This document shows positions 19,972 to 38,875 of a stretch of 64,000 bases of DNA, piece after piece. A model generated the notes under the pieces. The model worked only from the letters and a program-made list of their open reading frames with translations. It had not been told where the DNA came from and made no database searches. This stretch comes from Streptacidiphilus sp. P02-A3a (lineage in GTDB: Bacteria > Actinomycetota > Actinomycetes > Streptomycetales > Streptomycetaceae): the NCBI RefSeq assembly GCF_014084105.1, contig NZ_CP048289.1:1869922-1933921 (forward strand), read 5' to 3'. A program made the position numbers and the translations under genes. Position 1 is the stretch's first letter. Each line of letters opens with the position of its first letter.

Positions 19972-19977
19972 TCACAG

Positions 19978-20453: not shown

Positions 20454-20478
20454 TCGGGCCGGTTCGGGTGCTGGTGTA

Positions 20479-21669: not shown

Positions 21670-22631
21670 GATTGCTCTCCTCGTTCGAGCAGGTCGGCGA
21701 AGGCCGTGGCCACCGGCAGACCGGTCTCGGCTTCCAGCCAGCCCCACTGGCCGTTGCTGTTCAACTCCAGCCAGTGCAGGTTCTGCTGGCGGTCCAGGCA
21801 CAGGTCGAAGCTCCCGCTGCACAGCCCGAAGTGGGCCAGGAACTCGATCAGAGCCCGTTGCATCCGGTTGGGCAGGTCGACGACCTTGTACGACAGCGCG
21901 TTGTAGTCCCGGCGCCAGTCCAGCAGGTCGGAGTCGATCCGGACGGTGAACACGCGCTGCCCGACCACGACGACCCGAAGATCGGCGGTCTTGTCGACGC
22001 GAGCCTGGAAGAGGTGCGGAGCGACGCGGACCGAGTCGTCGATCTCCTCGGCGGTCACCGGCTCGGTCCAGACGGACATCCCCACCTCGCCCTGCCGGTA
22101 AGGGGTCCAGCACAGCACCTTGTACACCGCCTCGCCCTGTTCGGTGAGGAAGGCCCGGACAGCGTCGGGGTCGTTCGACACCAGCGTCGGGGGCACCGTG
22201 AAGCCCATGCGCTGGGCCACCGCGAGCTGGGTGGGCTTGTGTTCGGCGGCGTGGTTGCGCAGCGGGTGGTTGACGAACAGGCACCCCGGAAGGCTGTAGA
22301 GGATGCCGCCCAGTCCGTGCCGGACCTGGCTCGAAGTGAATCGGGCGTCAGCCGTGGTCAGCTGGTCGAAGGTCGGCCAGCGTGGGCGGCGCCAGTACAG
22401 CGACCGGGCCTCGCCGATGTCCGCGGTCCGCGACGGGGTACGGATCTGTCCCGCCGGACAGCCCGGCGAGGACCCGAACCGTGCAGAGACCGTCAGGTCC
22501 TCGCCGATGTCCGCCGGATCGAAGCGGACGACGGGCACACCGCGGGTGTTGAGTTCGGCTATCACTGCGTCTGCGGTCGTGTCGTCCGCCTCGGTGGCCA
22601 CGAGCACCGGCCTCTGCACGGTCACGGCCAT
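21666..22631 (-). CDS. ATP-grasp ribosomal peptide maturase (graspetide ligase)
   Basis: A 321-residue ATP-grasp ligase of the family that forms omega-ester or omega-amide crosslinks between Thr/Ser/Lys and Asp/Glu side chains of a precursor. Visible landmarks are the N-terminal pre-ATP-grasp domain (VLVATEADDTTADAVIAELNTRGV), VYKVLCW near residue 170, DLRVVVVGQRVFTVRI near 218-233 and the metal-binding end CLDRQQNLHWLELNSNGQWGW near 279-299 with the ELNSN signature. The start ATG 22631 overlaps the precursor stop and its own stop overlaps the methyltransferase start, so all three genes are translationally coupled. Confidence 0.95.
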   Translation of the reverse strand: MAVTVQRPVLVATEADDTTADAVIAELNTRGVPVVRFDPADIGEDLTVSARFGSSPGCPAGQIRTPSRTADIGEARSLYWRRPRWPTFDQLTTADARFTSSQVRHGLGGILYSLPGCLFVNHPLRNHAAEHKPTQLAVAQRMGFTVPPTLVSNDPDAVRAFLTEQGEAVYKVLCWTPYRQGEVGMSVWTEPVTAEEIDDSVRVAPHLFQARVDKTADLRVVVVGQRVFTVRIDSDLLDWRRDYNALSYKVVDLPNRMQRALIEFLAHFGLCSGSFDLCLDRQQNLHWLELNSNGQWGWLEAETGLPVATAFADLLERGEQS

Positions 22632-22882
22632 CAGTCCTGGTCACTGTCCTGCTGGTAGTCCGGGTCGCTGCGGCTGTCCTGGTTGGTGCTGCCCGGCGTC
22701 TGCTTGTTGGTGCCCTTCAGCGTGCCGTGCTTCCCCATCTCAACGACCGTGCCCTCAGCGTCGCGGAAGACGCCGAGCTGATCGACCGTGTTCACCTCGA
22801 CCGTGGTGAACGGCACCTCGTGGAGCACGGCGTACGAGCGCATTCGACGGAGCCCCCACGGGCGGACGAGCGTGTTCTGCAT
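22631..22882 (-). CDS. ATP-grasp-modified RiPP (graspetide) precursor peptide
   Basis: An 83-residue precursor. The leader (residues 1 to about 50) begins MQNTLVRPWGLRRM, typical of actinobacterial ATP-grasp target peptides, and carries hydrophobic beta-like stretches for recognition. The C-terminal 30 residues are polar: Thr-rich (GTLKGTNKQTPGST) then Asp-rich (QDSRSDPDYQQDSDQD), giving hydroxyl donors followed by acidic acceptors, as expected for ester crosslinks. AGGAGA lies well placed before ATG 22882. It is first in the operon. Ring topology cannot be read from sequence. Confidence 0.9.
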   Translation of the reverse strand: MQNTLVRPWGLRRMRSYAVLHEVPFTTVEVNTVDQLGVFRDAEGTVVEMGKHGTLKGTNKQTPGSTNQDSRSDPDYQQDSDQD

Positions 22883-23136
22883 CTCACGTCTCCTCTGGGT
22901 TGGTGGTGCAGACGTTCAGCGACCGGATGTCCGGCGGACAAGGCCAGCCTGTCACCAGAGGAGGCGACGGTCCGGCCGTGCTGGACTCTCACGATCCCGC
23001 CACAGCCGGCCGCCTGGACGCTGGAGGACTGGTGCACGGTCGGCGTGAATCCTGATCGGCAGGGCTCAGCTGGCCCGGTACTCCTCATGCGGGGTCGCCC
23101 GCGCCCAGGCCGTGTCGAAGGCGTTCGAGCAAAGCT
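22883..23136. promoter_or_regulatory. Promoter region of the graspetide operon
   Basis: These 254 bp contain no credible gene. A perfect inverted repeat TGTCC-GGC-GGACA lies at 22928-22940, about 46 bp before the precursor start, where a regulator could block or help RNA polymerase. The divergent helix-turn-helix gene at 23505 is the obvious candidate regulator. Confidence 0.5.
22928..22940. promoter_or_regulatory. Inverted-repeat operator candidate of the graspetide operon
   Basis: TGTCC and GGACA arms flank GGC, perfectly symmetrical. A similar TGTCC-4-GGACA element occurs near 22449 inside the ATP-grasp gene, which lowers specificity. Confidence 0.4.
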
Positions 23137-23322
23137 TCACCACGGTAGGCGCAGCACGGTCTCGTGCGGCGGTACCGGCCCGGTGCTCTGGACGTCGGCC
23201 ATAGCCTCGCCGCCCAGCCGCCAGCCCTGAATCACGATGGTCTTGGACTCCTCGTCCACCCAGACCGTGGGCGACCGCCCGCCGGGCGACTGCTCGTCCT
23301 TACCGATGAACCGTAGTCCCAC
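23137..23322 (-). CDS. Small conserved Streptomyces protein of unknown function
   Basis: A 61-residue protein (MGLRFIGKDEQSPGGRSPTVWVDEE...) of a family I recall beside helix-turn-helix regulators in Streptomyces, usually paired with a DUF6879-type gene; no such partner is present here. It looks like a compact beta-rich fold with the SPTVWVDEE core. GTG 23322 is chosen because GGGAGG lies 5 nt upstream. It lies upstream of the graspetide operon on the same strand and is divergent from the regulator, so it could be co-regulated. Confidence 0.7.
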   Translation of the reverse strand: MGLRFIGKDEQSPGGRSPTVWVDEESKTIVIQGWRLGGEAMADVQSTGPVPPHETVLRLPW

Positions 23323-23504
23323 AACTACCTCCCGAGTCAAAGCCCTTGCTCGACCTTGCACGTCCTGGGCTTGCATCCAGTACAGGTGAGGCGAGGGTCT
23401 ACGGCCAGGTCCTGGGTGTCGTCCCGCTGTCGTCCCGGTCTCCGACGGGGGCACTGACCGCAGGTCGTCCGCGGGCGTACGATCGGCCCCGGAGGGTGCG
23501 GCAG

Positions 23505-24815
23505 GTGGAGCTGACCACACATCCACTGGCGTATGCACGATCGCTGTACGGCTGGTCCCAGGAAGACCTCGCCCGCCTGATCCGCCAGGCCGCCGCTGCG
23601 CGGGGGCTGCGCTCGGGCACCGATCGGCGCCGGGTGTGGAAGTGGGAGCACAAAGTCGCCGTGCCGGGGACGGATTCACAGATTCTGATCGCAGATGCCC
23701 TCGGGATACCGGAGAGTCGGATACGCGAGGTGGAGTGGCCGTACTGGCTACCCGCCTACGAGGAACCACTGCCGTTCGAGTCCCGCTACACCCTGCAAGC
23801 ACTGCGCGAGTCCCACGGAGCCACGATGGACCGACGATCGTTCACCCTGTTCACCGGACTCGCCCTGGTCGGCCTGGCCAACCAGTGGGCGGCGTTGGAA
23901 CCCGGGCGCCTGTCCGGGGTACTGGACGGGAAATGGGTGGATGTCGAGCTGGTCAGCTGGCTGGAAGGCACAGCGGCGCACCTGATCAGCCTGCCGACCG
24001 AGCAGCGCCAGCACACCGCCGGTCTGCTGGACGCCCACCTGGACACTGTCACCAACCTGATCGAACACGGCCGCTACAACCAGACCGTCGGCATGCGCCT
24101 GCACCACCTAGCCGCCAGCGTGGCCGTTGCCTACGGCTGGTACGCCTTCGACCAGGAGCAGCACGCGGTAGCCGGTCGCCGGTGGGACGCGGCGCTGCGC
24201 AGCGCACACGCCGCCCGCGATCGGGACCTCGGTGCCGGCATCGTGGCGGACTTCGCCTACCAAGCACTGTGGCAGGACAACCCCCGCATCGCCGTAACAC
24301 TCCTGGACAGCGCTCTCTCCGCGCCGCTCCATCCGGTCGCCCGATCACTGCTTCACCTGCGCAAGGCCCGTGCCCACGCTGCCCTCGGGGAGTCCAGGGC
24401 GACACACCGAGCCCTGGACGCCTCCGGCCGGGCATTGGCCGCTTCCGCCGCCGACCCAGCTCCGGAGTGGTGCGCCTGGATGTCTGCGGCCGACCTAGCG
24501 GTTGACGAGGGGGGCTGCCTCCTCGCACTGGGCCGCCCGCACGACGCCTACGACCGCATCACCGAGGGCATCAACCTGCTGCCGGTAGCCCGGGACAAGA
24601 CGCGCGCTGTCTTCCTCACGTACCAGGCCAGGGGCCTGCTCGCCCAGCGTGATCCCGAAGCTGCGGTGGTGCTGCTCACCGAGTCGCACCAGATCGCCAG
24701 CCGCATTGGCGCGAGCCGCTGCCTGGAGCAGGTGCGCCAGGTCAGCGGGCAGTTGGACGCCTACCTCACTGCGCCGGGTGTCGCAGAGTTCCGCGAGCTC
24801 ATCCGCGCTGCCTGA
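23505..24815 (+). CDS. XRE-type helix-turn-helix regulator with TPR-like domain
   Basis: A regulator of about 436 residues. Residues 1-75 hold a Cro/CI-type helix-turn-helix (ARSLYGWSQEDLARLIRQAA, then a GTDRRRVWKWEHKVAVPG turn). The remainder is helical repeats resembling TPRs (WDAALRSAHAARDRDLGAGIVADFAYQAL, LLHLRKARAHAALGE, FLTYQARGLLAQRDPEAAVVLL), a layout used by peptide-responsive regulators. GTG 23505 fits the start of the HTH, with GGAGGG upstream; the frame is open earlier but without family sequence. It is divergent from the graspetide genes and probably controls them. Confidence 0.88.
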   Translation: MELTTHPLAYARSLYGWSQEDLARLIRQAAAARGLRSGTDRRRVWKWEHKVAVPGTDSQILIADALGIPESRIREVEWPYWLPAYEEPLPFESRYTLQALRESHGATMDRRSFTLFTGLALVGLANQWAALEPGRLSGVLDGKWVDVELVSWLEGTAAHLISLPTEQRQHTAGLLDAHLDTVTNLIEHGRYNQTVGMRLHHLAASVAVAYGWYAFDQEQHAVAGRRWDAALRSAHAARDRDLGAGIVADFAYQALWQDNPRIAVTLLDSALSAPLHPVARSLLHLRKARAHAALGESRATHRALDASGRALAASAADPAPEWCAWMSAADLAVDEGGCLLALGRPHDAYDRITEGINLLPVARDKTRAVFLTYQARGLLAQRDPEAAVVLLTESHQIASRIGASRCLEQVRQVSGQLDAYLTAPGVAEFRELIRAA

Positions 24816-25133
24816 CGGAGGCGGAAGGAGTGCTTGGCCGGTGGTCACGTCCAGCTCACCGGGCTGTCCGCCAGCTACCAGCGGCCAGACGCTCACGCAC
24901 GCGGCCGTCCAGCGGTCGAAGTCCAGCGTCCTAGGCGATTCTCCTGCCGGCGTCCCCGACCCCTGTCGCTGGATCGTACGGCGACGGCTTCGGGCTTCCA
25001 CGGGGCCGCCAACCCTATGCCTGACCAGCAAAGACGTAGCCCTCAAGCCCGGAAGGACAACAGCTTCTCAGCCTCAGCGGCTCGGTGGACGAGCTATTGC
25101 TCAATAAAGCGCCAAGGACTGTTCCGTAACCAC
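24816..25133. other. 318-bp gap without recognisable features
   Basis: Between the HTH regulator and the methyltransferase remnant I see no convincing gene, hairpin or repeat. Short frames here lack family-like sequence. It may be decayed accessory DNA. Confidence 0.6.
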
Positions 25134-25647
25134 TCAGGCGGACACCTCGGCTGAGACGAACAGGAAGTTCGGCAGGCAGACGTAACTGTCAATCGCCGGA
25201 GTAGCAGACCGGGCCGCTGCTGCTACGGCAGGGTCGAGCCCTGGCTCTGCGACCTCACGCAGGCGGCAGCCGAGGGAGGCGAGTTCGTTGAGGTATGCCG
25301 AGAGGGGGCGGTGGAAGTCAGATGCGATGGCTCCGACGATCTCGTACTCCTCCAGGTACCGCTGTACGCGGTATGCGCTGTGCTTCTGCCAGGTACTCAG
25401 CAGTTGCTCGAAGGCAGGGTGAACCAGAGCGAAGACGAACAGGCCGCCCGGGCGTACCGCATCCACGCAGGCTCGCATCGCGGGCTTCCAGTCGGGGATC
25501 GCCATCAGGACCATGCTGCCGCAGCAGGGTGGGATTGACCAGGTGCCGTTTGGCGAAGTCCCCGTCCTCCGCCGTCGTTTCCATCGCTTCGCGCGTGGTC
25601 GAGGTGTTCCACTGCTTGATGGCGGTCTCGTTCGCCCTGGAGGTCAT
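25134..25647 (-). pseudogene. Class I SAM-dependent methyltransferase with internal deletion
   Basis: The N-terminus reads well from ATG 25647 for about 42 residues (NETAIKQWNTSTTREAMETT, AKRHLVNPTLL). Sequence then switches frame near 25515 to a methyltransferase C-terminal half (MAIPDWKPAMRACVDAVRPGGLFVFALVHPAFEQLL and onward to the stop at 25134). The Rossmann part with the SAM-binding GxGxG loop, roughly 60-80 residues, is missing. The enzyme is certainly dead, created by an out-of-frame internal deletion. Confidence 0.85.
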
Positions 25648-25860
25648 TCGCGGGAGCGTAAGGTGTCGGGAGGCAACGTGCGACCGAAAATGAGCAAGGT
25701 GAGCGTCGCCTCCGAGCGTGGTCTCGATCCACTTGGCGAACCAGCAGCTCAGGACGAGACCCGGCAGAATGACTCCGATGCGAGCACATGCCTCGTGGGC
25801 GAGCAGTTCCCTAGGGGCCGCCGTTCCTCGTGGCCCGCGCCGCCGCTGTTCGGTTGTCGG

Positions 25861-28800
25861 TCATCGATTCTCCTCCGCCGGGTCCGCCATGGTGCTGCCA
25901 GGCTTCGCGCTGCCGGTCTCGGGGGTGCCGTGGTCGGTGCCGCTGCCTGGCGCGCCGCTGCCCCGGGGCGCGCCGCCGGTGAGCGCGTCCCGCAGGCTGG
26001 GCCGGGGGCGGCCCGGGGGCTCGGGCCGCTGCTCCCGGATCCGGTCCTCGAAGCCCCGCAGCGCCCGGAGCGCGGCAAGCGGGAGCTCCCGGTCGAAGGC
26101 CGCCAGCGTGGGCAGGCCGTCCTGGATCCGATTCTCGCCGCGCTTGCGGCGCAGGATCTGCCCGGCCAGCTCGCCGAGGCCGTCCTCGGCGTCGCGGCGG
26201 TCCGGGTCGTCCTCGGCCCAGGGTTCCAGCACGCTCACCCAGCCCGGGTTGAGCTCGTCGAACCGCTTCACCAGTGCCCGTCGCTCCGGGTCGAGCAGCG
26301 CCCAGCGGTCCAGCAGCAGCACCCCGGGCGCGCTGGGCCCCGGGCCCGCCCCACCGGGGCCGGAACCCGAGGGGGCGAGCAGCAACTCGGCCTCGTCCTC
26401 GAAGAGATGGACACTGGTGTGGAAGTTCAGCTTCCGCAGAACGCTCTGCGCGTGCTGCGCCAGCGACAGGTCGCTCTCGCGCCAGTACGGCTGCCAGTCC
26501 AAGGCGTTCGAGCCGTAGCTCAGGTCCGCCCGCCCCGGCGGCAACCGCCGGGTATCGCAGGCCAGCACGGATATCCGCATCTGCCGGGACGGCGGCGGCG
26601 CGGCGAAGGCGCTGACGCGGGAGAGGAGGTTCTCGGTGGTGCCGGTCTCGATCTCCACCGACTCGGCCACGTCCACGATGCGCTGCGCCAGCCGGTGCAC
26701 CACGAGTTCGTAGGACTCCCGGAAGTAGCCGAGTTTACTGAGCGCGAGCGTTCCCTCGTTGCGGTAGTCCGTGCCGAGGCTGGGGTGGAGGAACTGGATG
26801 CGGGCGGCGACCTCGGGCAGGTTCTCTCGGGGAACCCGCACCCACAACACCGGGACGATTCCCGACGGGTCGTTGTCGGCCCCGCTACGCACCACCGGGC
26901 GGCTGGCGAAGCACGACCACTCCTGCCCGCAGGTTTCGCTTCGGAAGTAACGCGGCGAGTAGAGCGGCACGAACACCCGGCAGTTGGCCAGCGCCTCGGA
27001 GACCCGCTCGGCCCAGCCCTCGCCCAGGTGCATGCCCCGGTCCATGAAACCCACCGGGACGCCCTCGGTATGGGGCGCGATCTCCGTGATCGCCTCACAG
27101 AGGTCGTCGTAGAGCCGGTACACCCAGAGGTTCGGATCGTGTCCCGACGATCCCGTCCCGGGAGTGTGCGCATAGCTCAGGAAGAAGTACGGCCGCGCGG
27201 CCTCCCGCTCCTCGACGGTGGTTCCGGCCCGGTGGCGGTCCCGGTCCTCCCGCAGGGCGGCCAGGCTGCGGCCGTACGCGGCCGAGGCGTCGGCGGCGTT
27301 CACCGCGTCGGCGGCGTCGCGCAGCGCGGTGAGCAGGGCGGCGGTGCTGTCCCCCGTCCGGGACAGGGCCTCCCTGATCCGGGTGAGCTGGTACCGGGCG
27401 TCCGCGCGCGGGGCGGGCGGGCAGAGAGCGTCGATCAGCCAGTCGAGCGGGTAGAGGCCCGGGATCTGGTTCAGCTCGGCAGCGAGGCTGATCGCCTCGG
27501 CGAACCTGCCCGGAGCCGCCTGCGGCTCGCGGCCGGTGAGCCGTTCCACCAGCTCCTGGAGCAGCCGCTGCTCCTGCGAGGTCGGCCGCGCGCCGGAACC
27601 CGGGTTCAGCCGCTGGCCCGCGAGCACCTGCTTGACCAGGGACGCGGTCTCGGTCAGCGCTCCGGTGTCGACCAGCAGGGCGGCGAGGCGCAGCTCCAGG
27701 GCCGCGACGTCCGGGTGCCGCGCACCCGACCCGGCCCGTTCCACCGCCAGCCGCTCCGTCAACCGGTCGAGCTGTGACCGGGTGCGGTCGGTCTCTGGCC
27801 GAGCGGATTCGAGCGCGGCCGGTTCCGCCGGGGGCCGGGTCGAGGCCGGGTTCGGGGTCGGGGCCGACGCCGGGGTCGGCGGCAGGATGCCGAGGTAGCG
27901 CAGGAACGGGCCGCCGACCTCGGCCAAGGTGTTTCCGACGTCGGGTATCCGGCCACTGCCGTGCGGGTCGGCGAGGATCGCGCTCAGCGACGCGGTCCGG
28001 GCTGTGGGCCGCTCCAGGTAGGCGGACACGACGCGGACCGTGTTCAGCGCGTCGCCGGTGTCGACCGCCGACATCAGCAGATCGGCGACGCCCGGGTGCA
28101 GCGCGTAGACGGCGTCGGCCGGGGCGGCGCGCGGGGAGGTCGCCCGGAGCAGGCCGCCGAGGAAGACCTCGGCCAGGTAGCCGGGGTGGCTCCCGGGCAG
28201 TACCGCCTCCTGCACCACCCGCATCACCGGCAGGGTGAGCGGTCGCACGGTGGAGAGGTGCGCGGCGAGCCGGAAGGCCTGCGGGGAGGCGGCGGTTCGG
28301 AAGGCCGCGAGTCGCTCCGGCGCGGACGGCGGTCCGGTGGCGCCCCCGGTGGCGGCGGCCCCGTGGGCGGCCTCGACGGCCGGGACCGGGACAGGCGGTC
28401 GGGCGTCGATGACCGGCAGGGTGACCGTGCCGCCGGTGGCGGCCAGCACCGCCCAGTCCCGCAGCTGACCGGGGGACAGCTCGATCAGCGGCACCGGCAG
28501 TCCGGGGAGCATCGCGACCACGTCCGGCAGCAGCGGATCGCTGCTGCCCAGAAGCCGGTTGGCGGCTCCGCCCAGCGGCGCGGTGAGAGCCAGCCGGGTC
28601 GGCTGGAGCGCGGTGCCGGACCACAGCGTCGGCGGCAGTGGCTGGAGGACCGCCACCGTGCTGTGGGCGCACTGCTGCTCCAGGAACGCCCGCATCACCC
28701 CCGACCGCCAGCCCGCGCCGACCCCGTCCGAGAACATCAGCACGGTGGAGGAGTGCCGGGGACCGCCGCGGCGCGGCAGCGCCCCCCGCCGCGTCCCGAA

Positions 28801-29445
28801 CGGCCGGGTGTGCACCACCGCCCGCTCGGCCCGGTCGCTGTCCAGGCCGATGGCGATCACCCGGCGGAACGCCCCCAGGTTCCGCAGCAGCCGTTGCAAC
28901 TCGGCGGCCATGTCCTGCCACAGCCGCATCGAGGTGCCGTCGTCGACGACCAGCAGCAGGTCCCTGGACCGCAGCGCCTCGGACCGGTGGACCAGCTGGA
29001 GCAGCGAGGTCTCGGCGATCAGGTTGGCGGTGGCGGTCTCGTCCAGGTGCGGGGTCCAGCTCGGGCGGCGGTAGCGGCGCAGCGGTCGCAGCGCCCGCCG
29101 GAGCTGGAGCGGGTCGCTGATCGGCAGCCGCCCGGGAACCCGGACCGGACGCCCGGGACTGGACGTGCCGGGGAGCCGCGCCGGAGCGTGCAGCCGCTCG
29201 CGCGGGTTCGCCGCCGGTTTCGCCGGATCCTGGAGCTGGCTGCCGGGCTCGGCCGCCGCCGGTCCCTCGGCCGGGACGAGCGGGTCGGCGGCCGGGTCCG
29301 CGCCGTTGGCCCAACGCCGGACCGTGCCGCCGTCGTCCCTGGCCATGGCCCGGGCCAGCCAGAGGATGTCCAGCAATTCCTCGTGCGAGGGGTCGACGTC
29401 CTGTCGGCGCAGCGCCGCGCGCACCCGGTCGATGCCGGACGTCAC
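25861..29445 (-). CDS. SAV_2336/vWA-like and TIR-like (FxsC) multidomain protein of a MoxR-protease conflict system
   Basis: A 1194-residue cytoplasmic protein. Residues 1-35 match the SAV_2336 N-terminal helical domain (IDRVRAALRRQDVDPSHEELLDILWLA). Residues about 160-330 form a vWA-like domain with a MIDAS-like DDGTS in DLLLVVDDGTSM (162-173). A helical middle follows, then from about 752 to 940 a TIR-like FxsC domain (PYFFLSYAH, VPVGFMDRGM, VFVPLYSPRYF, ETCGQEW). A second alpha/beta region, about 980-1110, ends in a disordered tail. TIR domains often cleave NAD+ or signal in immunity, so this is the likely effector. GTG 29445 overlaps the MoxR stop (GTGA). Confidence 0.88.
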   Translation of the reverse strand: MTSGIDRVRAALRRQDVDPSHEELLDILWLARAMARDDGGTVRRWANGADPAADPLVPAEGPAAAEPGSQLQDPAKPAANPRERLHAPARLPGTSSPGRPVRVPGRLPISDPLQLRRALRPLRRYRRPSWTPHLDETATANLIAETSLLQLVHRSEALRSRDLLLVVDDGTSMRLWQDMAAELQRLLRNLGAFRRVIAIGLDSDRAERAVVHTRPFGTRRGALPRRGGPRHSSTVLMFSDGVGAGWRSGVMRAFLEQQCAHSTVAVLQPLPPTLWSGTALQPTRLALTAPLGGAANRLLGSSDPLLPDVVAMLPGLPVPLIELSPGQLRDWAVLAATGGTVTLPVIDARPPVPVPAVEAAHGAAATGGATGPPSAPERLAAFRTAASPQAFRLAAHLSTVRPLTLPVMRVVQEAVLPGSHPGYLAEVFLGGLLRATSPRAAPADAVYALHPGVADLLMSAVDTGDALNTVRVVSAYLERPTARTASLSAILADPHGSGRIPDVGNTLAEVGGPFLRYLGILPPTPASAPTPNPASTRPPAEPAALESARPETDRTRSQLDRLTERLAVERAGSGARHPDVAALELRLAALLVDTGALTETASLVKQVLAGQRLNPGSGARPTSQEQRLLQELVERLTGREPQAAPGRFAEAISLAAELNQIPGLYPLDWLIDALCPPAPRADARYQLTRIREALSRTGDSTAALLTALRDAADAVNAADASAAYGRSLAALREDRDRHRAGTTVEEREAARPYFFLSYAHTPGTGSSGHDPNLWVYRLYDDLCEAITEIAPHTEGVPVGFMDRGMHLGEGWAERVSEALANCRVFVPLYSPRYFRSETCGQEWSCFASRPVVRSGADNDPSGIVPVLWVRVPRENLPEVAARIQFLHPSLGTDYRNEGTLALSKLGYFRESYELVVHRLAQRIVDVAESVEIETGTTENLLSRVSAFAAPPPSRQMRISVLACDTRRLPPGRADLSYGSNALDWQPYWRESDLSLAQHAQSVLRKLNFHTSVHLFEDEAELLLAPSGSGPGGAGPGPSAPGVLLLDRWALLDPERRALVKRFDELNPGWVSVLEPWAEDDPDRRDAEDGLGELAGQILRRKRGENRIQDGLPTLAAFDRELPLAALRALRGFEDRIREQRPEPPGRPRPSLRDALTGGAPRGSGAPGSGTDHGTPETGSAKPGSTMADPAEENR

Positions 29446-30494
29446 GGCCGGGCCGGGTCGTCCAGCGGTCGCAGGACCGCCTCCCGCAGCACCTCGGGCT
29501 CCAAACCGACCTGGTTCAGCCGCAGATGGACCGCGCTGAGCAGCTGGTCGGTGGCGAGCTCCTGCTGCTCCTGGTCGCGCAGCCGCAGGAACTGGTCGAG
29601 CAGTTCGCGGGTGTCCGGGTCCTCGGCGGCCTCCGGGCCGAGGTGGGCCTCGATGATCCGCAGCAGCCGGGTGTCGTCCGGCGGGTTCAGTTCCAGCCGC
29701 ACGCAGCGGCGCAGGAAGGCCGGGGGGAAGTCGGTCTCGCCGTTGCTGGTGATCACCACGACCGGGAACTGCGAGCAGCGGACCTGCCCCTCGCGTACCG
29801 GGACGGTGGCCCTGGTCCCGGACAGGTGGACGTCCACCGGGGTCTCCTGGTCCCGCAGCCGGGCCAGCTCCGGAATCTCGAAGCCGCCCTCCTCGAACAC
29901 CACCAGGAGGTCGTTGGCGAGGTCCGGGTCACTCTTGTCCATCTCGTCGATCAGCAGCAGCCGGGGATGCCCCGGGCTGCTGTCCGCCAGCGCCGTGCCC
30001 AGCGGGCCGAGCTTGATGTACTCGCCGATGTCCGGCGGGGTGCTGCGGTACTGGCTGTCCCGCAACCGGGCGATGGCGTCGTACCGGTACAGCCCGTCGA
30101 CGTGGGTGGTGCGGCTGTTCACCGGCCAGCGGAGTACCGTGCCGAGGCCCAGCTCCTGGGCGATGGCGCTGGCCAGGGTGGACTTGCCGGTGCCGGGACG
30201 GCCGGTGACCAGGAGCGGCCGGTGCAGGTGCAGCGCCGCGTTGACCACGTCGGCCTCGCGCTCCTCGACGTAGTAGTCGGCCACCCGCACCGCGCCCGCC
30301 GCGCCCGCGACGGTCGTCTCCGGGCCGCCGTCCGGGCCGCCGAACCGCCGCCAGGGCGGGGCGGGCGGCCAGGCCACCGGCTCGGTCCGGACGCTGCCGT
30401 CGCCGTGGAAGATCCGCCACGTGGCCCCGCCGGTCCGCGGGGCAGGGGTCGGCGGGTTAGTCGGCGGGTTACTGGCCGGGGATCCGCTGGTCAC
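29442..30494 (-). CDS. MoxR-type AAA+ ATPase of the conflict system
   Basis: A 350-residue AAA+ ATPase. Walker A is GRPGTGKST at residues 98-106, Walker B LLLIDEMDK at 179-187, sensor 1 ITSNGE near 249-253 and an arginine-finger candidate RRC near 262-264. The Pro-rich first 70 residues are probably disordered. MoxR ATPases act as chaperone-like switches on vWA partners; here the vWA/TIR protein is encoded immediately downstream with a 4-nt overlap. GTG 30494 has AGGAGG 8 nt upstream and lies 3 nt after the protease stop. Confidence 0.93.
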   Translation of the reverse strand: MTSGSPASNPPTNPPTPAPRTGGATWRIFHGDGSVRTEPVAWPPAPPWRRFGGPDGGPETTVAGAAGAVRVADYYVEEREADVVNAALHLHRPLLVTGRPGTGKSTLASAIAQELGLGTVLRWPVNSRTTHVDGLYRYDAIARLRDSQYRSTPPDIGEYIKLGPLGTALADSSPGHPRLLLIDEMDKSDPDLANDLLVVFEEGGFEIPELARLRDQETPVDVHLSGTRATVPVREGQVRCSQFPVVVITSNGETDFPPAFLRRCVRLELNPPDDTRLLRIIEAHLGPEAAEDPDTRELLDQFLRLRDQEQQELATDQLLSAVHLRLNQVGLEPEVLREAVLRPLDDPARP

Positions 30495-30497
30495 GGG

Positions 30498-32600
30498 TCA
30501 GTCCTCCTGGGTCGGGTACAGGGTCGGGTACAGGGGCGGGGTCAGGTCGGGGTCGGGGAAGGTCCAGTCGGGGTCCTCCCAGATCAGGGCCAGGTGATGA
30601 CCCACGAGTTCGGCGCCGCCGGTCCGGGGCGACGCCTCGATCCGCCGCCGTCGGACCCGCTGCGGCAGCTCCCTGACACCACCGCCGGAGACCAGGCCCC
30701 GCAGCGATCCGTCGGCGTCGGCGCAGTCCGGTCGGCGGAGCCAGAGCACCGCCGGAATGCCCTCGCAGGCCGCCAAGGAGGCCAGATTCAGCGCCGTCTT
30801 CCGGTCCGCCCGGATCGCCACGCAACCGACGTCCTCGGCCAGCATCAGCTGCTTGTACAGCGCGCGGCCATCGACCGGCCCGTCCTGGACGTCGACCACC
30901 ACCGGCTCGGTCCGGCCGAGCTGCCGCCAGCGCCGGGTCACCGCATGCCTGCGCCATTGCCGGGGCCTCCGCAGCAGCACCTGGTACTTCGTGCCCAGCT
31001 CGCGGGCGACACCGTGGTAGGAGGCGAGCTCCCACCACTCCAGCTCAAGGTCCAACTGCGTCGGCTCGACCAGGAACTCCACCACCAGGCCGTGGTCATG
31101 GAGCGCCGACTCGGCCTCGATGATCCGGGACAGCGACCGGGCGATCTCGTCCAGGCCGCGCGGGGTGTGCTCGCGCAGGGCGACCCGGGTCACCCCGTCG
31201 CCGTCGCGGACCGCGATCGCGCAGCGGTAGCCCTCGTTCGCCCGCAGCAGCTCGACCTGTACCCGGACCAGCCGCACGGCCGCACTGGCCGCCGCGTCCC
31301 AGGCCTGCTGTGCGTCCGTGCGCAGCGCCTCCACCTGCGATTCCACCGCCAGCCTGGTGGCCACTCTGGCCGACCACATCCACAGCAGCGTGCGCAGCCG
31401 CGGGTCGGAGGTCCGCGCCGCGGCGTGCTCGGCCAGCCCGATCACCGCCGGGAGCTGGTGCGGGCCGCGTGAGTACGGCTCGACGTAGCCCACCGCGTCC
31501 GCCGGGCCGGTGAGCGTGAAGTCGGGCTCCGGGCCGTAGGGGAGGGCCAACCGGACCAGCTCCAGCGGCGTGGGCAGCCGCGGCCCGGCGGAGTCGAGCC
31601 GGGACAGCAGCTCGTGGTACTCGCTCACGGTCAGCACCAGCCGGGGGTGGAGCCGTCGGGTCTCGGCCCGCACCAGCTGCCGCTGTTCCGGCGAACCCGC
31701 GTAGCGGTCGGCGGCGGCCAGCAGGGTGACCGCCCCGCGCTCGTCCCACTGAGCGGCGGCGGCGAACAGCGCCTCCGGCGCCACCGGGGTCGGGATCGGC
31801 TGCCGCAGGGTCAGCTCCTTGCTCAACCAGGCCGCGCATTGCCCGAGTCCGCTCAGGTCGTCCAAACTCCGTAACACCAGTTCGCGTAGCTCGGGCTCGA
31901 TCGGCAGGTCCTCGGGCAGGACGGGCAGCAGGTGCCCGAGGTGCCGCCAGACCTGCCGGGTCGGGATGGCGAAGCCGTCGCCGCCCTGCGCCCCGACGAG
32001 CAGCCCGAGGACCTGCTGCCGCTGCGGGTGCCAGAGCGGGGAACCACTGATGCCGGGGACGAAGCCGATCGTGGAACCGGCGCTGGACATGGAGATCCAG
32101 GTCGGTGCCACGGCCCGGACCCGGGCCTCGACCGGACGGATGTGGTCCCGTCCGTACCAGGCGAGCACGGCGTCCCCGCGCCGGGCATGCCCCCAGGCAG
32201 CCGGGGTCGGCGGCGGGTTGCCCGGCAGCGGGTCGGCGGGTTCCAGGCGCAGCAGGGCGAGGTCCCCCTCCCACTCGCCGCGCGGGTCGGCCGACATCGG
32301 CCCGCCGTCCGGGCGTTCGGCCGGTACCCACTCCAGCAGCCGGGCGCCGCAGCCGCGCCGCGCGCCGCCCGCCGTGGCCGGGAGCAGCAACAGGTCCGGC
32401 AGCACCGCGCCGGGCGGCACCGGCGGCGGGATGCTGAACCTGGGCAGGCCGAGGGCCTGGTTGACCACATGGGCGCAGGTGACGACGAGGCCCCCGGGCA
32501 GGGCCAGGCCGCCGCCGATCGCGTCTGTCACCCCGGCCCGGTAGACCGCTATCCGGGAGTCGCGTACCGGGGCGTCCGTCTCGGAGTCGTCCGTCAGCAT
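30498..32600 (-). CDS. Trypsin-like serine protease with VMAP-type C-terminal domain
   Basis: A 700-residue protein. The N-terminal 215 residues are a trypsin-like protease with an apparently intact triad: His44 (VVTCAHVVN), Asp113 (EGDLALLRL) and Ser187 (GISGSPLW). No signal peptide is present, so it acts in the cytoplasm. A short helical effector-associated-like domain follows near 245-330, then a VMAP-type C-terminal region (LALPYGPEPDF near 365; the conserved WELASYHGVARELGTKYQVLLRRP near 510-535). Such vWA-MoxR-associated proteins are described in predicted ternary conflict systems. It is the second gene, 13 nt after the Trypco1 stop. Confidence 0.9.
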   Translation of the reverse strand: MLTDDSETDAPVRDSRIAVYRAGVTDAIGGGLALPGGLVVTCAHVVNQALGLPRFSIPPPVPPGAVLPDLLLLPATAGGARRGCGARLLEWVPAERPDGGPMSADPRGEWEGDLALLRLEPADPLPGNPPPTPAAWGHARRGDAVLAWYGRDHIRPVEARVRAVAPTWISMSSAGSTIGFVPGISGSPLWHPQRQQVLGLLVGAQGGDGFAIPTRQVWRHLGHLLPVLPEDLPIEPELRELVLRSLDDLSGLGQCAAWLSKELTLRQPIPTPVAPEALFAAAAQWDERGAVTLLAAADRYAGSPEQRQLVRAETRRLHPRLVLTVSEYHELLSRLDSAGPRLPTPLELVRLALPYGPEPDFTLTGPADAVGYVEPYSRGPHQLPAVIGLAEHAAARTSDPRLRTLLWMWSARVATRLAVESQVEALRTDAQQAWDAAASAAVRLVRVQVELLRANEGYRCAIAVRDGDGVTRVALREHTPRGLDEIARSLSRIIEAESALHDHGLVVEFLVEPTQLDLELEWWELASYHGVARELGTKYQVLLRRPRQWRRHAVTRRWRQLGRTEPVVVDVQDGPVDGRALYKQLMLAEDVGCVAIRADRKTALNLASLAACEGIPAVLWLRRPDCADADGSLRGLVSGGGVRELPQRVRRRRIEASPRTGGAELVGHHLALIWEDPDWTFPDPDLTPPLYPTLYPTQED

Positions 32601-32613
32601 GGCCGGTGGTCCG

Positions 32614-33150
32614 TCAGTCCCCGGCGGCGGGATGTTCGGTCGGCCGGGGTGCGGCCGTGCCGGGCGCGGCGGCCGGGACGGCGACTTCCGCTGATGCCGG
32701 GGCCGGGGACGGGGCCGGGGGCCGGGTGGGGGCCGAGGCCGGGGTCGGGGCCGAGGCCGGGGTCGCCTCGGGGGGTCGGCTGATCCGCCAGGTGGCGGCG
32801 ATGGTCAGGCTGGCCTCCCCCTGGCCTCCGACGATGCCCAGTTGGAGGTTGTTGGCCAGCTTCACGCCGAGGGTGACGGTCACCTCGTCCGGAGCGTGCG
32901 GGATGTGCAGGACGGTGCGGTGGACCGCTTCCAGCGTGGGGACGAGCGGTCGCAGCACGTCCTCCAGGGAGCGTCCGGCCCGGGTGATCACCTCGGAGGT
33001 GCGCCCGACCGGGGTCAGCGGGGCCACCGCTGCCGGGAACGACTCCTCGGGGGAGCCGCTGCCGGTGTCATCCAGTCCGCTGGGCGCGGCGAAGACCTCC
33101 ATCAGCACGCTGGTCCGGTCGTCGAAGCTGAACTCAACGAATTCCCCCAT
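32614..33150 (-). CDS. Trypsin-co-occurring domain 1 (CU044_2847 family) protein
   Basis: A 178-residue protein. Residues 1-130 match the short family that co-occurs with trypsin-VMAP genes: MGEFVEFSFDD at the start, a helix near 55-75 and EVTVTLGVKLANNLQ near 98-112, ending in a beta strand (SLTIAATWRIS). The rest is Pro/Ala-rich and unstructured. It may be the sensor or protease substrate of the system. ATG 33150 begins the family core; no clear ribosome site is visible, and GTG 33159 is an alternative. It is first gene of the four-gene operon. Confidence 0.85.
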   Translation of the reverse strand: MGEFVEFSFDDRTSVLMEVFAAPSGLDDTGSGSPEESFPAAVAPLTPVGRTSEVITRAGRSLEDVLRPLVPTLEAVHRTVLHIPHAPDEVTVTLGVKLANNLQLGIVGGQGEASLTIAATWRISRPPEATPASAPTPASAPTRPPAPSPAPASAEVAVPAAAPGTAAPRPTEHPAAGD

Positions 33151-33763
33151 GGTCTGCACTATGCCAGCAAACCCCGGTGCGGCGAAGGGCCGTTGGCAAT
33201 GTCGGTGCCGGGTGGGCGGAGGCCAAGAGCGATCATGACCGCCCGCCCACCGCCACCAGCCCACCACTGCCGCCCGCTACGCCGCACTCCTGGGCCTGAG
33301 CACCACCGCCGTCACCCCCGAAACCGCGCTGACCAAGCCGCTCGGGCTGCGCACGGTCGCCGCCTCGGTCACCACGCCCCGCCGGGCACCCCTACTGTCT
33401 CCGCCGGCGACTTGGAGACGTACGCCGCTGCCGCCGCCGAGCGCACCGGCGACCCCGCGACCGGTGCGAGCGACACCGAACGCGAACTCCTGCGCCTTTT
33501 GGGCAGCGGCTTGACCGATGAGACTGCAGCCCAGTGTCTGGGTACCTCCAGTCGAACCGCCGCCGGTAGATGGCCGCCATCATGGAGCGCCTGACCGCGG
33601 GGAGCCGCTTCGAGGCCGGTATCAAGGCCGCCCAGCGCAGCTGGCTCCGACGGCCGGCTGTTGTGGACATAGCCGACGCGCATTGCGGTCGGCGGCGACC
33701 CCCTGGACGTGCTGCGGGGCTGGCTCGTATTGCGTCAGCCCCGCAGGCGTGATGCGTTGGATC
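33151..33763. other. Degraded spacer between the conflict operon and the secreted-protein gene
   Basis: Apart from the LuxR-type remnant listed separately, the stretch has no intact gene. It should also contain the promoter of the conflict operon near 33150-33260, but I could not assign boxes with confidence. Confidence 0.5.
33400..33665 (+). pseudogene. Remnant of a LuxR/NarL-type regulator C-terminus
   Basis: The frame reads TERELLRLLGSGLTDETAAQCLGTSSRT, the first helices of a LuxR-type helix-turn-helix. It then shifts by one base near 33560 and resumes as MAAIMERLTAGSRFEAGIKAAQRSWL, the usual C-terminal end of such regulators. The N-terminal sensor domain is missing. It is frameshifted and truncated, another scar in the accessory region. 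Confidence 0.7.
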
Positions 33764-36700
33764 TCAGTCGAAGTAGCCGCTGCAGTCGAGGACGAAGTCC
33801 ACGGTGCCGCTGCTGTGGTTGTAGATGCTGATCTTGCCGTTGGCGTCGGTGGGGGTGAGGGTGAGGTTCGCCCGAGTGGAACCGGGGGCCCAGTTGACGT
33901 TGGCTGTGACGGGCAAGCCCGCTGCGGTCGGATACACGGTGCTGTTGCCGCTGTCACCGGAGGCGTCGGTGACGGTGAGGGTTGCGGCGAGGGTTGGGAC
34001 GGTGGCTGTGGTGATGAGTTGGGTGTCGGCTGCGGTCAGGGTGTAGGTGCCGAAGGCGGCCACGCTGCCTTGTGTGCCGCCGATGCCGCTGCGTGTGTCG
34101 ACCAGGCGCGTGGGGTTGACAGTGTGGTACTTCTGGCTGCTTGTTCCGGTGGTGAAGTAGCCGGCGATGTCGGCGATGACGGCGGCGGCACCGTGGACGC
34201 TGATGGTTATGCTGCCGTTTGCGCCGATCGGAACATCGGCTGCCATGGAGGTGGATGCACTGCTGGTGTCGAAGCTCAGGCTGGTGTACCCGGTGGTCGG
34301 TGTCGCACCGGTGGCGTAGGCCTCAAGGAAGCCGGTGCCGGATTGGTTGACGGCGGTGAGGTCGACGGCCACGGCAGAAGCGTTGGCTGGGATGCCGTCG
34401 TTGCCGCCAACAGCCAGCGTGAAGCTGGTTCCGTCGGCCACGACGCCGCTGGTGCTGTTGTACTGACTGCTGGTCAGGTTGGTGTAGTTGGTGCTTGTCC
34501 TGGTGTCCAGGAGCCGGGTCGCGCTGGGCAGGGGACTGTAGGTCTGGTCGCCGATCAGGGTGCTGTCGCTGGTGTAGTAGCCGGTGACGTCTACGATCAG
34601 GGCAGTGGTGAATCCGCTGCTGCCCAGGGTCAGGTCGATCCGGCCGTCACTGCCGACGGGGACGATTTGGTAGCTGGTGACGGTGTCATTTGCGGAGAAG
34701 TCGGTGGACGACGTCTGGGGCTGCTCTGTTCCGTCGGCATAAGCGGAGAGGTAGGCGGCTCCGGTCTCACCGGTGGCGGTGAGATCGACGGCCACTGCGG
34801 TGATGCTGGAGGGGATAGCGTCGGGGGCGCCGCTGGTCGCCGGGGTGACGGGATCGTCGGCGATCTGCAGGATTGTGGTGGTGCCCCCCTGGACGGTGCT
34901 GGCGCCGACCGCGACGGCGGACGACGCGGTGGTACCCGCGTAGGCGATCATGGTGCCGTGGGCGCGAGTGTCGAGGATGCGAGTTGGCGTGACGGCCTGG
35001 TGGTAGCTGGCAAGCCCGGAGACCTGGGTGGGTGGCACCGCTGTTCCAGCCAGTGTCTGGACATCGGCGACGCGGCCCGAGAAGTAGTCCTGGTGCTTGC
35101 CGGCACGGAAGTCGTCACCGATGCGGAAGGGACCGGTGGCCCCGCTGGAGAGCGCGGCGTGCCTGCCGGAGGCGACGAAGACATTGTCGACGTAGAGGTT
35201 CATGACGCCGGAGCCTTGGTTGTACGTAGCGGTCAGGTGAGCCCAGGTGTTGAGCTGTGCGGTGCCGCCGGTGATGGTGTCGAGAGTCCAGGCGGTGCCT
35301 GCGCCGGTGTTGAGGCTGAAGGACCAGGTGCCGTTCTGGACGGCCACACTGAGCCCCGAGTCGGCGTTGCCGTCCTGGGTCAGGACGGCAGCGCTGTAGG
35401 CGGCGGGGTCGACCCAGGCGGAGACGGTGAAGCTATTGGTGAGGTCGACGGCGTTGGCGGTCGTGGACAGGTCGCCGGTGCCACCAGTCGTGGGAGTGAC
35501 GCCGTCGTTGTCGGTGTTGAGGAGGACGTCCGGGCTGAACGTGTCGCCCTTGTTCCAGACAGCGCCGGCGGCCCCAGTGAGCGGCAGCGTGCCGAAGCTG
35601 TCGGCAGTGCTGGTGATCGGAGTGCCGGAGATGTTGGCACCGATGTCCTCGAAGCTCCAAGCGTGGTCTGCGGACGGGGGCTTGCTGCCGCCGGAGGTGG
35701 GCACCGGCATGCTGGCACTCAGGGTGGACGGCATATAGCTGCTGGTGACACCGGACATGGTGTCGGTGGCCCACAGGTCGGGGACACCGGAGCCGGTCAT
35801 GTCCGCTGCCCGCAGCACGATGGGGTCGGCCGCATCCTTGTTCCAGAAGGTGCTGACACCGTCGGTGATGGTGTATTGGCCGGTGGTCGTCAGGGTGGTG
35901 CCGGTGTTGTCGACGGCCAGCCCGGTCCACAGGTCCAGGGCTCCGGTCCCACGGTTCCACAGGTACATGGCCGTCCCGCTGGAGAGTTGCGCCGTCGCCA
36001 GTGTCCAGTTGTTCCAACTGGTTCCGTCGGGGCTGCGCAGACCAGTAAGCACATCACAGGTGCCGACGCAGCTGAACGGATTGCTGTAGCCGTTCGAGGT
36101 GGTGGAGTAGTAGAGGTAGAGGTTCCCGTCCGGGCCGGTGGCGAGGAGGTCTGGCAAGCCCGTGTCCTCGCCGCTGGTGTTCCCTGCGGTGACGACGTCA
36201 GTGACATTGTCATTGTTGTCGTCGATCAGTGCTCCCGGCAGGATGACACTGGGCGCGGTGTCGCTGTTGAGATTGGCTCCGTGCAGCGGGCCGGCGCTGC
36301 CGTCGTTGCAGGCGACATCACCGCCTCCGGCGTTGGCGCCAGTGGGGAAGTACGCGAAGACGTCCTGTGCCCCGTTGCCGCAGAAGTCGCCGGTGATGGC
36401 CTGCGCGCCGTCCCAGTCGGTTGGCTTGCCCTGGTAGTCGGTCCCCAGCCCGGTGACCCCGATATTGACCGGGTGGGTGCTGATGCCGCCGTTGCCGGTA
36501 CCGGCGGCCATCCACAGGCCGTGACCGAACTCGGTACCAGTGCCGCCGGGGACGATCAGGTCGGGCACGCCGTCCAGGTTGAGGTCACCGTCGTTGGCCG
36601 GTGGGTTCAGCCCGGCGCCGTCGAACCACACTGTGGTCGCGGAGCCGATGTTGCCTCCGGCGGACAGTGCGCTGACGGTCAGCGTGTTGACCAGATTGGT

Positions 36701-38875
36701 CAGTGGAACGGTGATACTGGCTGAACCAGTTGCCGGCAATTGGATAGGAGCCGCCTGGTTGGTCTGGTACAGGTAGCCGGAGATCGGGGTGCTGGTTCCA
36801 CCGGTGGTGAGGGGGGAGAGGGTGAAGCCGCAGGTGCTACCTATTGGCTCGATACTGCCGACGGTGCCGTCAAGGGTGAGGCAGCTCTTGGCACCGGGGG
36901 GAGGGGAGGCATTGGTCTTGACGATGGGTGCGCCAGGCCGGGTCGGATCCCACTTGAAGGTGCAGGCAGTTGCGGTCCAGCCGGAGGTCAGAGTGGTGTC
37001 TGTGCTTTCGGCGATGAAGGAGAAACTGGTCGCTACGCCACCGGCCTGCTTCGAGAAGAAGGACTCGGACAGGGTGAGCACGGCCTGCTGTCCCGATGCT
37101 CCGGTCCAAGTGTCTGAGGAGATGCCGTTGGCACTGGTCAGCAGGTTGTTCTTGGCACTGTCGGAGGACTTGTAGAGGTTGAAGGTTGTCGTCAGTGAGC
37201 TCCTGGTGGGAGTGGACTGGGTGGCGTAGAGGGTGACGCTCGTGTCGCCCAAGACGCTGCCGGCGCAGCTGCTGGCAGGTATCGTCTTCAGACCGCTGGG
37301 AGCGTTCGGGTGCTTGTCGAAGGTGATGACGAGTTCTGCGCTGGTGGGGTCGAACTTCTTGAAGGCGTAATTGTCGCTGTGGTCGTCAGCGCGCAGCGCA
37401 AGGGTCTGTGTGTGGGTGCTGTTGGCGATGTCGTTGGTGATGTCAGTGGTCAGGGCGCTGCTGCTGAAGGCGGGAGTGGCTCCGGCCGGGCAACTGGAGT
37501 TGTAGCCCAGGGCGAAGGAGTCGGAGGCGACGGTGCTGCCCAGACTGCCGGACCAGGCGTTCCAGTTGGCGTTGGAGGACGTCAGGACCTGTGCGGGGGC
37601 GTAGAGGTCGACTGCCTGGTCGTGACCGGACGTGGGGCAGGCCCAGGAGTAAGTTTCGGTGATCCCGAACGAGACGCCGTAGATCTTCGCGCCGTGCAGG
37701 GCCGAGTAGGGGACTGAGAAGTCGAACAGGCTCATCGCCTCGTCCTGGACGGAGCTGCTGTTGCCGACCTCGGACAGCAGCGGGGTGTCGACGGAGTCGA
37801 CGGTGCTGTTCCAGTAGTTCTCGGAGGGGACGCCCGAGCCGGGGCTGGACCAGCCGCTGATGCCGTAGGTGGGCGAGTACGTCGGGTCGACGTAAACGGG
37901 GTAGACCGTGCCGGGGGCGTTGAGCAGCGCTGTCGGAGCAGCCAGGTCGATCGCGCCAGTTTCGGCGGAGGTGGCGTGAGTGGTGGCGGCCAGGGTGGCG
38001 ATGTGGGCGCCGTGGGCGGGTGCGTCAGCGCTGGAGTCCGACGGAGCAAGGGCGGCGTTGCGGGTGTGGGTGGTGGCGCCCCCAGGCAACGCCGTAGCCG
38101 TGGAGTCCCAGGCGTGCGGCGCGGGTGCGGTGTAGAGGGGGTGGCCGTGGGCGTCGGCGACAGACAGGTCACCGGTCCGGTCGGTTGCCAGGCGCAGTCC
38201 GCGGGTGGTGGTGACGGTGGCGTCCAGCAGCCCCGGAAGGTGGGGGTTGTGAGCTGCCACGCGGGTGCGGACGGTGAAGACGTCGCTGACGGCGCCGTCG
38301 GCGAGGACAGTTAGGGTCAGGTCCACGCCGGGCAGGACATCGGCGTAGCGGGCGCTGGCGCCTGACAGGGTGGGCCGTGGCAGGGTGACCGGCAGACGAA
38401 GACTGAAACCCTGGCCGCCGGTGTACATCTCGGCGACCGGTCCGCGACCGCCACCGGACAACACGACCGTGTCAGTGGTTGCCACCGGCGATACCGTGCC
38501 GTCGGCGTTCGCTCGCAGGGTCGGATTCAGGTCGTTCCAGGCACCGTGCTGGAAAGCCCTGCTCGGGAGGGCGTTCTGAGTGAGCGTCAGGGTCCCATTG
38601 GCATTGGCGGTGGTCATCTCGGTCGTGGTCGTCAACGACGATGCCACCACCGGCCGGTGGGACGCCCGGGCCTGCGCCATGGCTTGATTCAACGTCAGGA
38701 ATCTGCTGCCGGGGACGTCGCCGCTACCGGTCCCGCTGGTATTGATCGAGTGGTCGGCTGGTGTGGACGCGGCGACTGCTGCCGGTGCGGCGGTCAGAAC
38801 GGTCGCGGTCAGTGCCCCGGCGAGCAGCGCCGCCAGCCTTCCGCTCGACGCGCGTGTGCGTTTTATATTCCTCAT
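33764..38875 (-). CDS. Very large secreted repeat protein (DNRLRE-like, LamG-like and C-terminal wall repeats)
   Basis: A 1703-residue exported protein. It has a Sec signal peptide (basic MRNIKRTRASSGR, hydrophobic core, cleavage near AAVAAS at residue 36). Residues about 300-520 look like a DNRLRE-type beta domain, about 755-1030 VCBS/FG-GAP-like repeats (GDLNLDGVPDLIVPG), and about 1067-1270 a LamG-like domain. Three C-terminal repeats of about 140 residues follow, each opening TR(I/L)(L/V)DTR (near 1293, 1448, 1585) and closing with a VDVTGYYT-like strand. Cysteines are few. It is probably an extracellular adhesin or processing partner for the RHS toxin encoded nearby. Confidence 0.85.
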   Translation of the reverse strand: MRNIKRTRASSGRLAALLAGALTATVLTAAPAAVAASTPADHSINTSGTGSGDVPGSRFLTLNQAMAQARASHRPVVASSLTTTTEMTTANANGTLTLTQNALPSRAFQHGAWNDLNPTLRANADGTVSPVATTDTVVLSGGGRGPVAEMYTGGQGFSLRLPVTLPRPTLSGASARYADVLPGVDLTLTVLADGAVSDVFTVRTRVAAHNPHLPGLLDATVTTTRGLRLATDRTGDLSVADAHGHPLYTAPAPHAWDSTATALPGGATTHTRNAALAPSDSSADAPAHGAHIATLAATTHATSAETGAIDLAAPTALLNAPGTVYPVYVDPTYSPTYGISGWSSPGSGVPSENYWNSTVDSVDTPLLSEVGNSSSVQDEAMSLFDFSVPYSALHGAKIYGVSFGITETYSWACPTSGHDQAVDLYAPAQVLTSSNANWNAWSGSLGSTVASDSFALGYNSSCPAGATPAFSSSALTTDITNDIANSTHTQTLALRADDHSDNYAFKKFDPTSAELVITFDKHPNAPSGLKTIPASSCAGSVLGDTSVTLYATQSTPTRSSLTTTFNLYKSSDSAKNNLLTSANGISSDTWTGASGQQAVLTLSESFFSKQAGGVATSFSFIAESTDTTLTSGWTATACTFKWDPTRPGAPIVKTNASPPPGAKSCLTLDGTVGSIEPIGSTCGFTLSPLTTGGTSTPISGYLYQTNQAAPIQLPATGSASITVPLTNLVNTLTVSALSAGGNIGSATTVWFDGAGLNPPANDGDLNLDGVPDLIVPGGTGTEFGHGLWMAAGTGNGGISTHPVNIGVTGLGTDYQGKPTDWDGAQAITGDFCGNGAQDVFAYFPTGANAGGGDVACNDGSAGPLHGANLNSDTAPSVILPGALIDDNNDNVTDVVTAGNTSGEDTGLPDLLATGPDGNLYLYYSTTSNGYSNPFSCVGTCDVLTGLRSPDGTSWNNWTLATAQLSSGTAMYLWNRGTGALDLWTGLAVDNTGTTLTTTGQYTITDGVSTFWNKDAADPIVLRAADMTGSGVPDLWATDTMSGVTSSYMPSTLSASMPVPTSGGSKPPSADHAWSFEDIGANISGTPITSTADSFGTLPLTGAAGAVWNKGDTFSPDVLLNTDNDGVTPTTGGTGDLSTTANAVDLTNSFTVSAWVDPAAYSAAVLTQDGNADSGLSVAVQNGTWSFSLNTGAGTAWTLDTITGGTAQLNTWAHLTATYNQGSGVMNLYVDNVFVASGRHAALSSGATGPFRIGDDFRAGKHQDYFSGRVADVQTLAGTAVPPTQVSGLASYHQAVTPTRILDTRAHGTMIAYAGTTASSAVAVGASTVQGGTTTILQIADDPVTPATSGAPDAIPSSITAVAVDLTATGETGAAYLSAYADGTEQPQTSSTDFSANDTVTSYQIVPVGSDGRIDLTLGSSGFTTALIVDVTGYYTSDSTLIGDQTYSPLPSATRLLDTRTSTNYTNLTSSQYNSTSGVVADGTSFTLAVGGNDGIPANASAVAVDLTAVNQSGTGFLEAYATGATPTTGYTSLSFDTSSASTSMAADVPIGANGSITISVHGAAAVIADIAGYFTTGTSSQKYHTVNPTRLVDTRSGIGGTQGSVAAFGTYTLTAADTQLITTATVPTLAATLTVTDASGDSGNSTVYPTAAGLPVTANVNWAPGSTRANLTLTPTDANGKISIYNHSSGTVDFVLDCSGYFD

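Follow-up and report, generated by a model that had tools for sequence, protein, structure and literature searches.

VMAP ternary conflict systems form a known class that is predicted to act against viruses. According to the main-text sections of Kaur et al. (2020, eLife, PMC7159879; follow-up in the same journal in 2021, PMC8195603), the class is defined by the gene order VMAP-MoxR-vWA, a VMAP-C domain and two MoxR motifs (WxhapG and PsWRxa). Most of the vWA proteins have two aspartates, and their tail is variable; TIR domains are already among the catalogued tails, and proteolysis is suggested to free the effectors. Trypco1 or Trypco2 genes often, though not universally, adjoin the VMAPs that carry a trypsin, and according to Table 1 of that work VMAP systems occur in 716 organisms, of which 694 are multicellular. 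The opposite model, in which the variable tail of the vWA protein is the sensor and the N-terminal domain of VMAP the effector, is given in the parts consulted of a study of Thiohalocapsa systems diversified by diversity-generating retroelements (PNAS 2024, PMC10907252). Here, we analyse a four-gene operon in a stretch of 64,000 nucleotides from Streptacidiphilus sp. P02-A3a (contig NZ_CP048289.1, positions 1,869,922 to 1,933,921), hereafter the window. The operon is a VMAP ternary conflict system whose vWA protein ends in an FxsC tail. The class and its TIR tails are already known from Kaur et al.; what is new here is the history of the tail.

The four genes lie on the minus strand in the order Trypco1, trypsin-VMAP, MoxR and vWA-FxsC. 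They are tightly packed, as an earlier note made from the sequence alone had described: the Trypco1 gene sits 13 nt upstream of the trypsin-VMAP gene, 3 nt separate the latter from the MoxR gene, and the last two genes overlap by 4 nt (coordinates in Table 1). All four open reading frames are in frame and without internal stops, and their high third-position GC, computed by codon position, fits real coding. Profiles and motif checks agreed with that note on the first three proteins: a Trypco1 protein, a VMAP protein with a VMAP-C terminus and an intact protease triad (His44/Asp113/Ser187), and a MoxR ATPase with intact Walker A (98) and Walker B (179) motifs. The ATPase also carries WRIFHG (26) and PPWRRF (46), which are the WxhapG and PsWRxa motifs of VMAP-system MoxR proteins. 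In the fourth protein, the SAV_2336 (SAV_2336_NTERM at residues 21-479, 1.6e-99), TIR (TIR_2, 4.5e-9) and FxsC parts were recovered by profile, and the TIR fold lies within the predicted residues 752-940; the vWA domain, in contrast, is not separate, as the note had it, but falls inside the SAV_2336 region (residues 158-339 of the model). Its two metal-site aspartates, Asp168 and Asp240, are invariant in 53 aligned sequences. Structure models support the vWA and TIR folds, and Foldseek ranks the NorQD complex first for the vWA model (E 4.7e-3). Of the class features examined, all are present save the strict N-terminal vWA motif ([D/E]xxx[D/E]xxxa): Glu22 and Asp26 are in place, the aromatic Trp29 comes one residue early, and the N-terminal region holds no strict match.

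The operon thus resembles the systems of Kaur et al. in its VMAP-MoxR-vWA order, its trypsin on VMAP with Trypco1 adjoining, its MoxR motifs and its TIR tail. It differs in that the tail is a complete FxsC (TIR followed by the FxsC C-terminal domain), in that trees indicate exchange of this tail with the stand-alone FxsC of Fxs loci, and in that the main-text sections of that paper derive TIR tails from AP-ATPase-fused versions. With the Thiohalocapsa systems, as far as the consulted parts of the PNAS paper describe them, it shares MoxR, a vWA protein with a variable tail and a trypsin-VMAP; unlike there, no reverse transcriptase was found among 24 window proteins scanned with Pfam, and the variation resembles module exchange. 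In mainly open-access literature, covered at the level of titles and abstract openings, we recognised neither an experimental test of a VMAP system nor an account of FxsC exchange.

The fusion of SAV_2336 with FxsC is common and its operon linkage is conserved. We surveyed 121 genomes of the family, scoring SAV_2336 for the best 12 candidates per genome at most, such that counts are lower bounds. VMAP-C was found upstream, on the same strand and within 4 kb, at 125 of at least 131 SAV_2336 places over the cut-off, in 85 genomes, so that the gene linkage is kept in relatives. Ten of the 97 FxsC_Nterm places over the cut-off are directly downstream of SAV_2336, and all ten are VMAP-linked (an eleventh FxsC-tailed locus, in genome G050, is under the FxsC cut-off and outside this count). 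Trypco1, counted for these ten systems only, is upstream in nine. A SAV core was present in 60 of 68 length-matched proteins retrieved with the FxsC part (query included). The joining of a TIR-like domain to SAV_2336, which the earlier note had taken for a possibly untested architecture, is thus widespread, and TIR tails figure in the catalogue of Kaur et al. Within the genus, FxsC is found in 14/14 genomes and a SAV_2336 match in at least 7/14. Among 157 related cores, a TIR tail was undetected in 101 (including P0070, a frame-broken protein of genome G013). The genome of the window encodes an additional VMAP-MoxR-SAV_2336 system (L126, G000:C1:7948000-7967900).

Is the history of the tail that of its core? 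The window TIR shares 80% identity with the stand-alone FxsC of a congener, G012, whose genome has no SAV_2336 or VMAP-C match; fused copies in that comparison reach 58% at most. The four-gene system of Streptacidiphilus sp. 4-A2 has a TIR 55% identical to that of the window and other parts 67-79% identical, and in the protein with the nearest core (P0069, 79%) TIR identity is 61% and the FxsC C-terminal domain has no match. We compared a tree of 81 FxsC sequences (36 of 117 rows being left out for lack of the C-terminal domain, length or long branches, and the 20 stand-alone copies from other genera being chosen by hand) with a tree of 157 cores (a quick LG+G4 reconstruction with long-branch warnings, from which 21 of 178 core matches were left out and in which P0070 is scored as having another tail). 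In the FxsC tree, the window tail and the stand-alone FxsC of G012 are sisters (support 100/100), and fused and stand-alone copies interleave with 18 label changes, at least 15 of which are forced by well-supported branches. In the core tree, FxsC-tailed cores form few clades and need 6 changes, 4 of them forced.

We applied the approximately unbiased (AU) test to two FxsC-tailed core clades; the third largest was too thinly represented in the FxsC tree, and smaller clades lay outside the test. The tails of the 28-tip core clade (27 in the FxsC tree) are rejected as a clade (AU p 2.6e-67), with 8 changes to stand-alone FxsC, and so are those of the 9-tip clade (8 in the FxsC tree; AU p 1.2e-4), with 5 changes. 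In these two clades, the FxsC tails depart from the ancestry of their cores, and the tail seems to have been replaced while the core persisted. A TIR-only test points the other way, since grouping the tails of the window, L032 and P0069 stays unrejected (p-AU 0.086). We conclude that the tail has probably been swapped repeatedly with copies from Fxs peptide loci of related bacteria. In all six cherries that pair a fused with a stand-alone copy (five with a SAV fusion, one with another fusion), the fused copy has the longer branch, which suggests, without proof, that the stand-alone FxsC of the Fxs locus is the donor and the vWA tail the recipient.

Fxs loci are the usual home of FxsC and encode ribosomally synthesised and post-translationally modified peptides (RiPPs). 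In relatives, stand-alone FxsC (NF040588/TIGR04276) is found in a locus with FxsB (TIGR04269) and FxSxx_TPR (NF040586), and in several of them an alpha/beta hydrolase and a SLATT protein are encoded close by; some Fxs loci have tandem FxsC/TIR copies, often strongly diverged (L022, L030, L157). The operon shares the FxsC module with these loci but has no FxsB maturase or FxSxx_TPR beside it, neither being found among 14 window proteins scanned with NCBIfam. The single FxsC_Nterm match in the genome of the window is the fused copy, and each of the other 13 genomes of the genus has one outside any SAV_2336 gene (in G013, two pieces below the cut-off). The interval from pdxH to the next shared gene is about 0.26 kb in this genome (L139, G000:C1:838000-857900) against 11.7 kb in G012, and the FxsB and FxSxx_TPR of G012, used as queries, have no match at this syntenic site: the genome of the window lacks this Fxs locus. 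The sole FxsB over the cut-off in this genome is at 7.02 Mb (412 bits), 2.3 kb from another SAV_2336 gene. In that region (L125, G000:C1:7014000-7033900), FxsB and an FxSxx_TPR-like gene adjoin a further SAV_2336-MoxR system; Trypco1 lies close to it, and upstream there is no VMAP-C over the cut-off.

What might such a tail do? SARM1 and AbTir have a tryptophan four residues before their catalytic glutamate. Like these TIR NADases and SPARTA, the tail has the TIR fold and a glutamate in a CxxE motif, Glu842, which we take from the motif to be the equivalent of that catalytic residue. The position is a glutamate in 115/117 aligned rows: 67/68 fused, 42/43 stand-alone (the exception being the frame-broken copy of G013) and 6/6 other fusions. 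Rows P0066-P0068 are outside these counts; P0066, the sole SAV fusion among them, retains the glutamate. It is also present in all 17 of the 68 fused rows in which the FxsC C-terminal domain was undetected. This conservation across fused rows favours an enzymatic tail. We propose, with confidence and doubt in about equal measure, that the operon is an abortive-infection VMAP system with an NADase-type TIR tail. The MoxR ATPase and the vWA protein would hold the TIR inactive; the VMAP protein would sense infection and trigger ATP-driven remodelling; its trypsin-like domain would then cleave the vWA protein and free the TIR; and the freed TIR would likely consume the NAD+ of the infected cell, with phage spread predicted to stop by abortive infection. 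The sensing, the order of the steps, the cleavage and the NADase activity are inferred. The earlier interpretation of the locus as a probable NTP-dependent immunity system with an ATPase-gated vWA/TIR effector is supported in part.

The operon lies in a region that varies between relatives (Table 1). The interval between conserved flanks spans 40.5 kb in the window (19,691 to 60,239) versus 9.1 kb in G012. The left-flank gene is present in 5/7 relatives searched and adjoined by tRNA-Val in all five; the right-flank gene was located in two of these five within the 40 kb examined, at 9.1 kb in G012 and at about 12 kb in G013. The region contains a truncated phage-integrase family protein (47949-48374, minus strand; profile positions 91-169 of 172, 2.4e-16). 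The placement in an element next to a tRNA, as claimed before, agrees with the tRNA-Val 6.1 kb from the operon 3' end, the variable region and the truncated integrase; against it, a search of the window that tolerated up to 3 mismatches gave no second copy of the last 24 bases of the tRNA. Between the tRNA and the operon (21666-22882, minus strand) lies an ATP-grasp RiPP pair, namely a putative precursor (TIGR04186, 1.2e-19) and a maturase (TIGR04187, 7.6e-116), and near the operon 3' end (23346-24815, plus strand) an NsdA-family TPR-like regulator (NF053720, 2.9e-86). Further on, a 1703-residue Laminin_G protein (33764-38875, minus strand) is divergent from the gene of a 2404-residue RHS/YD-repeat protein with a pretoxin HINT domain (40100-47314, plus strand). 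GC over 33-51 kb is 61-69%, compared with 70.7% window-wide.

Table 1. Coordinates of the operon, its domains and its surroundings in the window.
Feature	Positions	Strand	Basis
Trypco1 protein, 178 aa, operon gene 1	32614..33150	-	PF19493 1.7e-17, NF041216 9.1e-12
VMAP protein, 700 aa: N-terminal trypsin-like protease and C-terminal VMAP-C	30498..32600	-	Profiles, motif check
Trypsin-like domain of VMAP protein, residues 36-200	32001..32495	-	Trypsin_2 3.8e-7
VMAP-C domain, residues 457-677 of VMAP protein	30570..31232	-	PF20028 2.9e-29
MoxR AAA+ ATPase, 350 aa	29442..30494	-	AAA_5 2.9e-7, motifs
vWA-FxsC protein, 1194 aa: SAV_2336 vWA core, middle region, TIR, FxsC C-terminal domain	25861..29445	-	Profiles
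vWA fold, residues 158-339 of vWA-FxsC protein	28429..28974	-	Structure model, alignment
TIR domain (FxsC N-terminal), residues 752-928; candidate catalytic Glu842 codon 26920-26922	26662..27192	-	FxsC_Nterm 1.8e-59
FxsC C-terminal domain, residues 956-1152	25990..26580	-	TIGR04276 (FxsC_Cterm) 1.9e-32
tRNA-Val(tac), left edge of variable region	19684..19758	+	
Variable region holding operon, 40.5 kb between conserved flanks	19759..60238	.	Comparison with relatives

Several observations weigh against an NADase effector released from the vWA protein. Position -4 from Glu842 is Thr838 in the window, and the tryptophan found there in SARM1 and AbTir is not conserved in FxsC (8/68 fused and 4/43 stand-alone rows), so that NADase activity cannot be taken for granted. 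The glutamate is missing from one fused row, P0023; the P-loop matches of PADLOC models were weak (27 bits at best); the literature consulted, mainly titles and abstracts, gave no activity or phage phenotype for these proteins; and repeated replacement by Fxs-locus FxsC lineages is not a specific prediction of an effector role. The main rival, which we hold possible but doubtful, reverses the roles: the FxsC tail, a decoy copy of the FxsC in the Fxs locus of the same cell, would sense when a phage interferes with FxsC, MoxR would relay the signal, and the trypsin-like domain of VMAP would execute the response. A sensing tail and an effector at the N-terminus of VMAP are what the PNAS study (PMC10907252), in the parts consulted, proposes for this class, and the intact triad is in line with this. 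In each of the two tested core lineages, the tails belong with different Fxs-locus lineages of FxsC, which a need to match a resident FxsC would predict, and the longer fused branches of the cherries also favour a decoy. However, the genome of the window has no other FxsC match to guard, a non-enzymatic bait would not need the conserved glutamate, a quarter of the fused rows (those 17) have no FxsC C-terminal domain, and gene conversion between similar sequences could yield the same trees without selection. A more specific version, to which we give somewhat less credence still, is that VMAP systems keep copying the FxsC of their host cell into the vWA protein, such that phage proteins directed against the Fxs defence or peptide pathway hit the decoy instead and thereby set off the VMAP protease; the window would then be a case in which the bait has outlived the Fxs locus that it guarded.

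Two other explanations dispense with an active defence. The MoxR-vWA pair could be a housekeeping or developmental chaperone that assembles or activates an FxsC-type enzyme, which would serve NAD-linked signalling during growth of the mycelium and play no part against phage. Characterised MoxR-vWA pairs do assemble other enzymes (PMC7159879, main-text sections) and the vWA model finds NorQD first, but the patchy distribution of SAV_2336 even within the genus, the tail exchange and the placement of the operon in a variable region that also holds a truncated integrase make this improbable. That the operon is an inactive remnant decaying in this region agrees with the same integrase and with the lack of the Fxs locus that relatives have, and is very improbable given four open frames and intact catalytic motifs among those examined.

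If VMAP systems do copy the FxsC of their host cell as bait, they would be a bacterial counterpart of the integrated decoys of plant nucleotide-binding leucine-rich repeat receptors. More generally, the two published models, as presented in the consulted parts of both papers (PMC7159879, PMC10907252), place sensor and effector at opposite ends of the system. The FxsC tail is a good handle on this question: its TIR contains a candidate catalytic glutamate, a stand-alone sister is available for comparison at 80% identity over the TIR, and each model explains its history of exchange differently.

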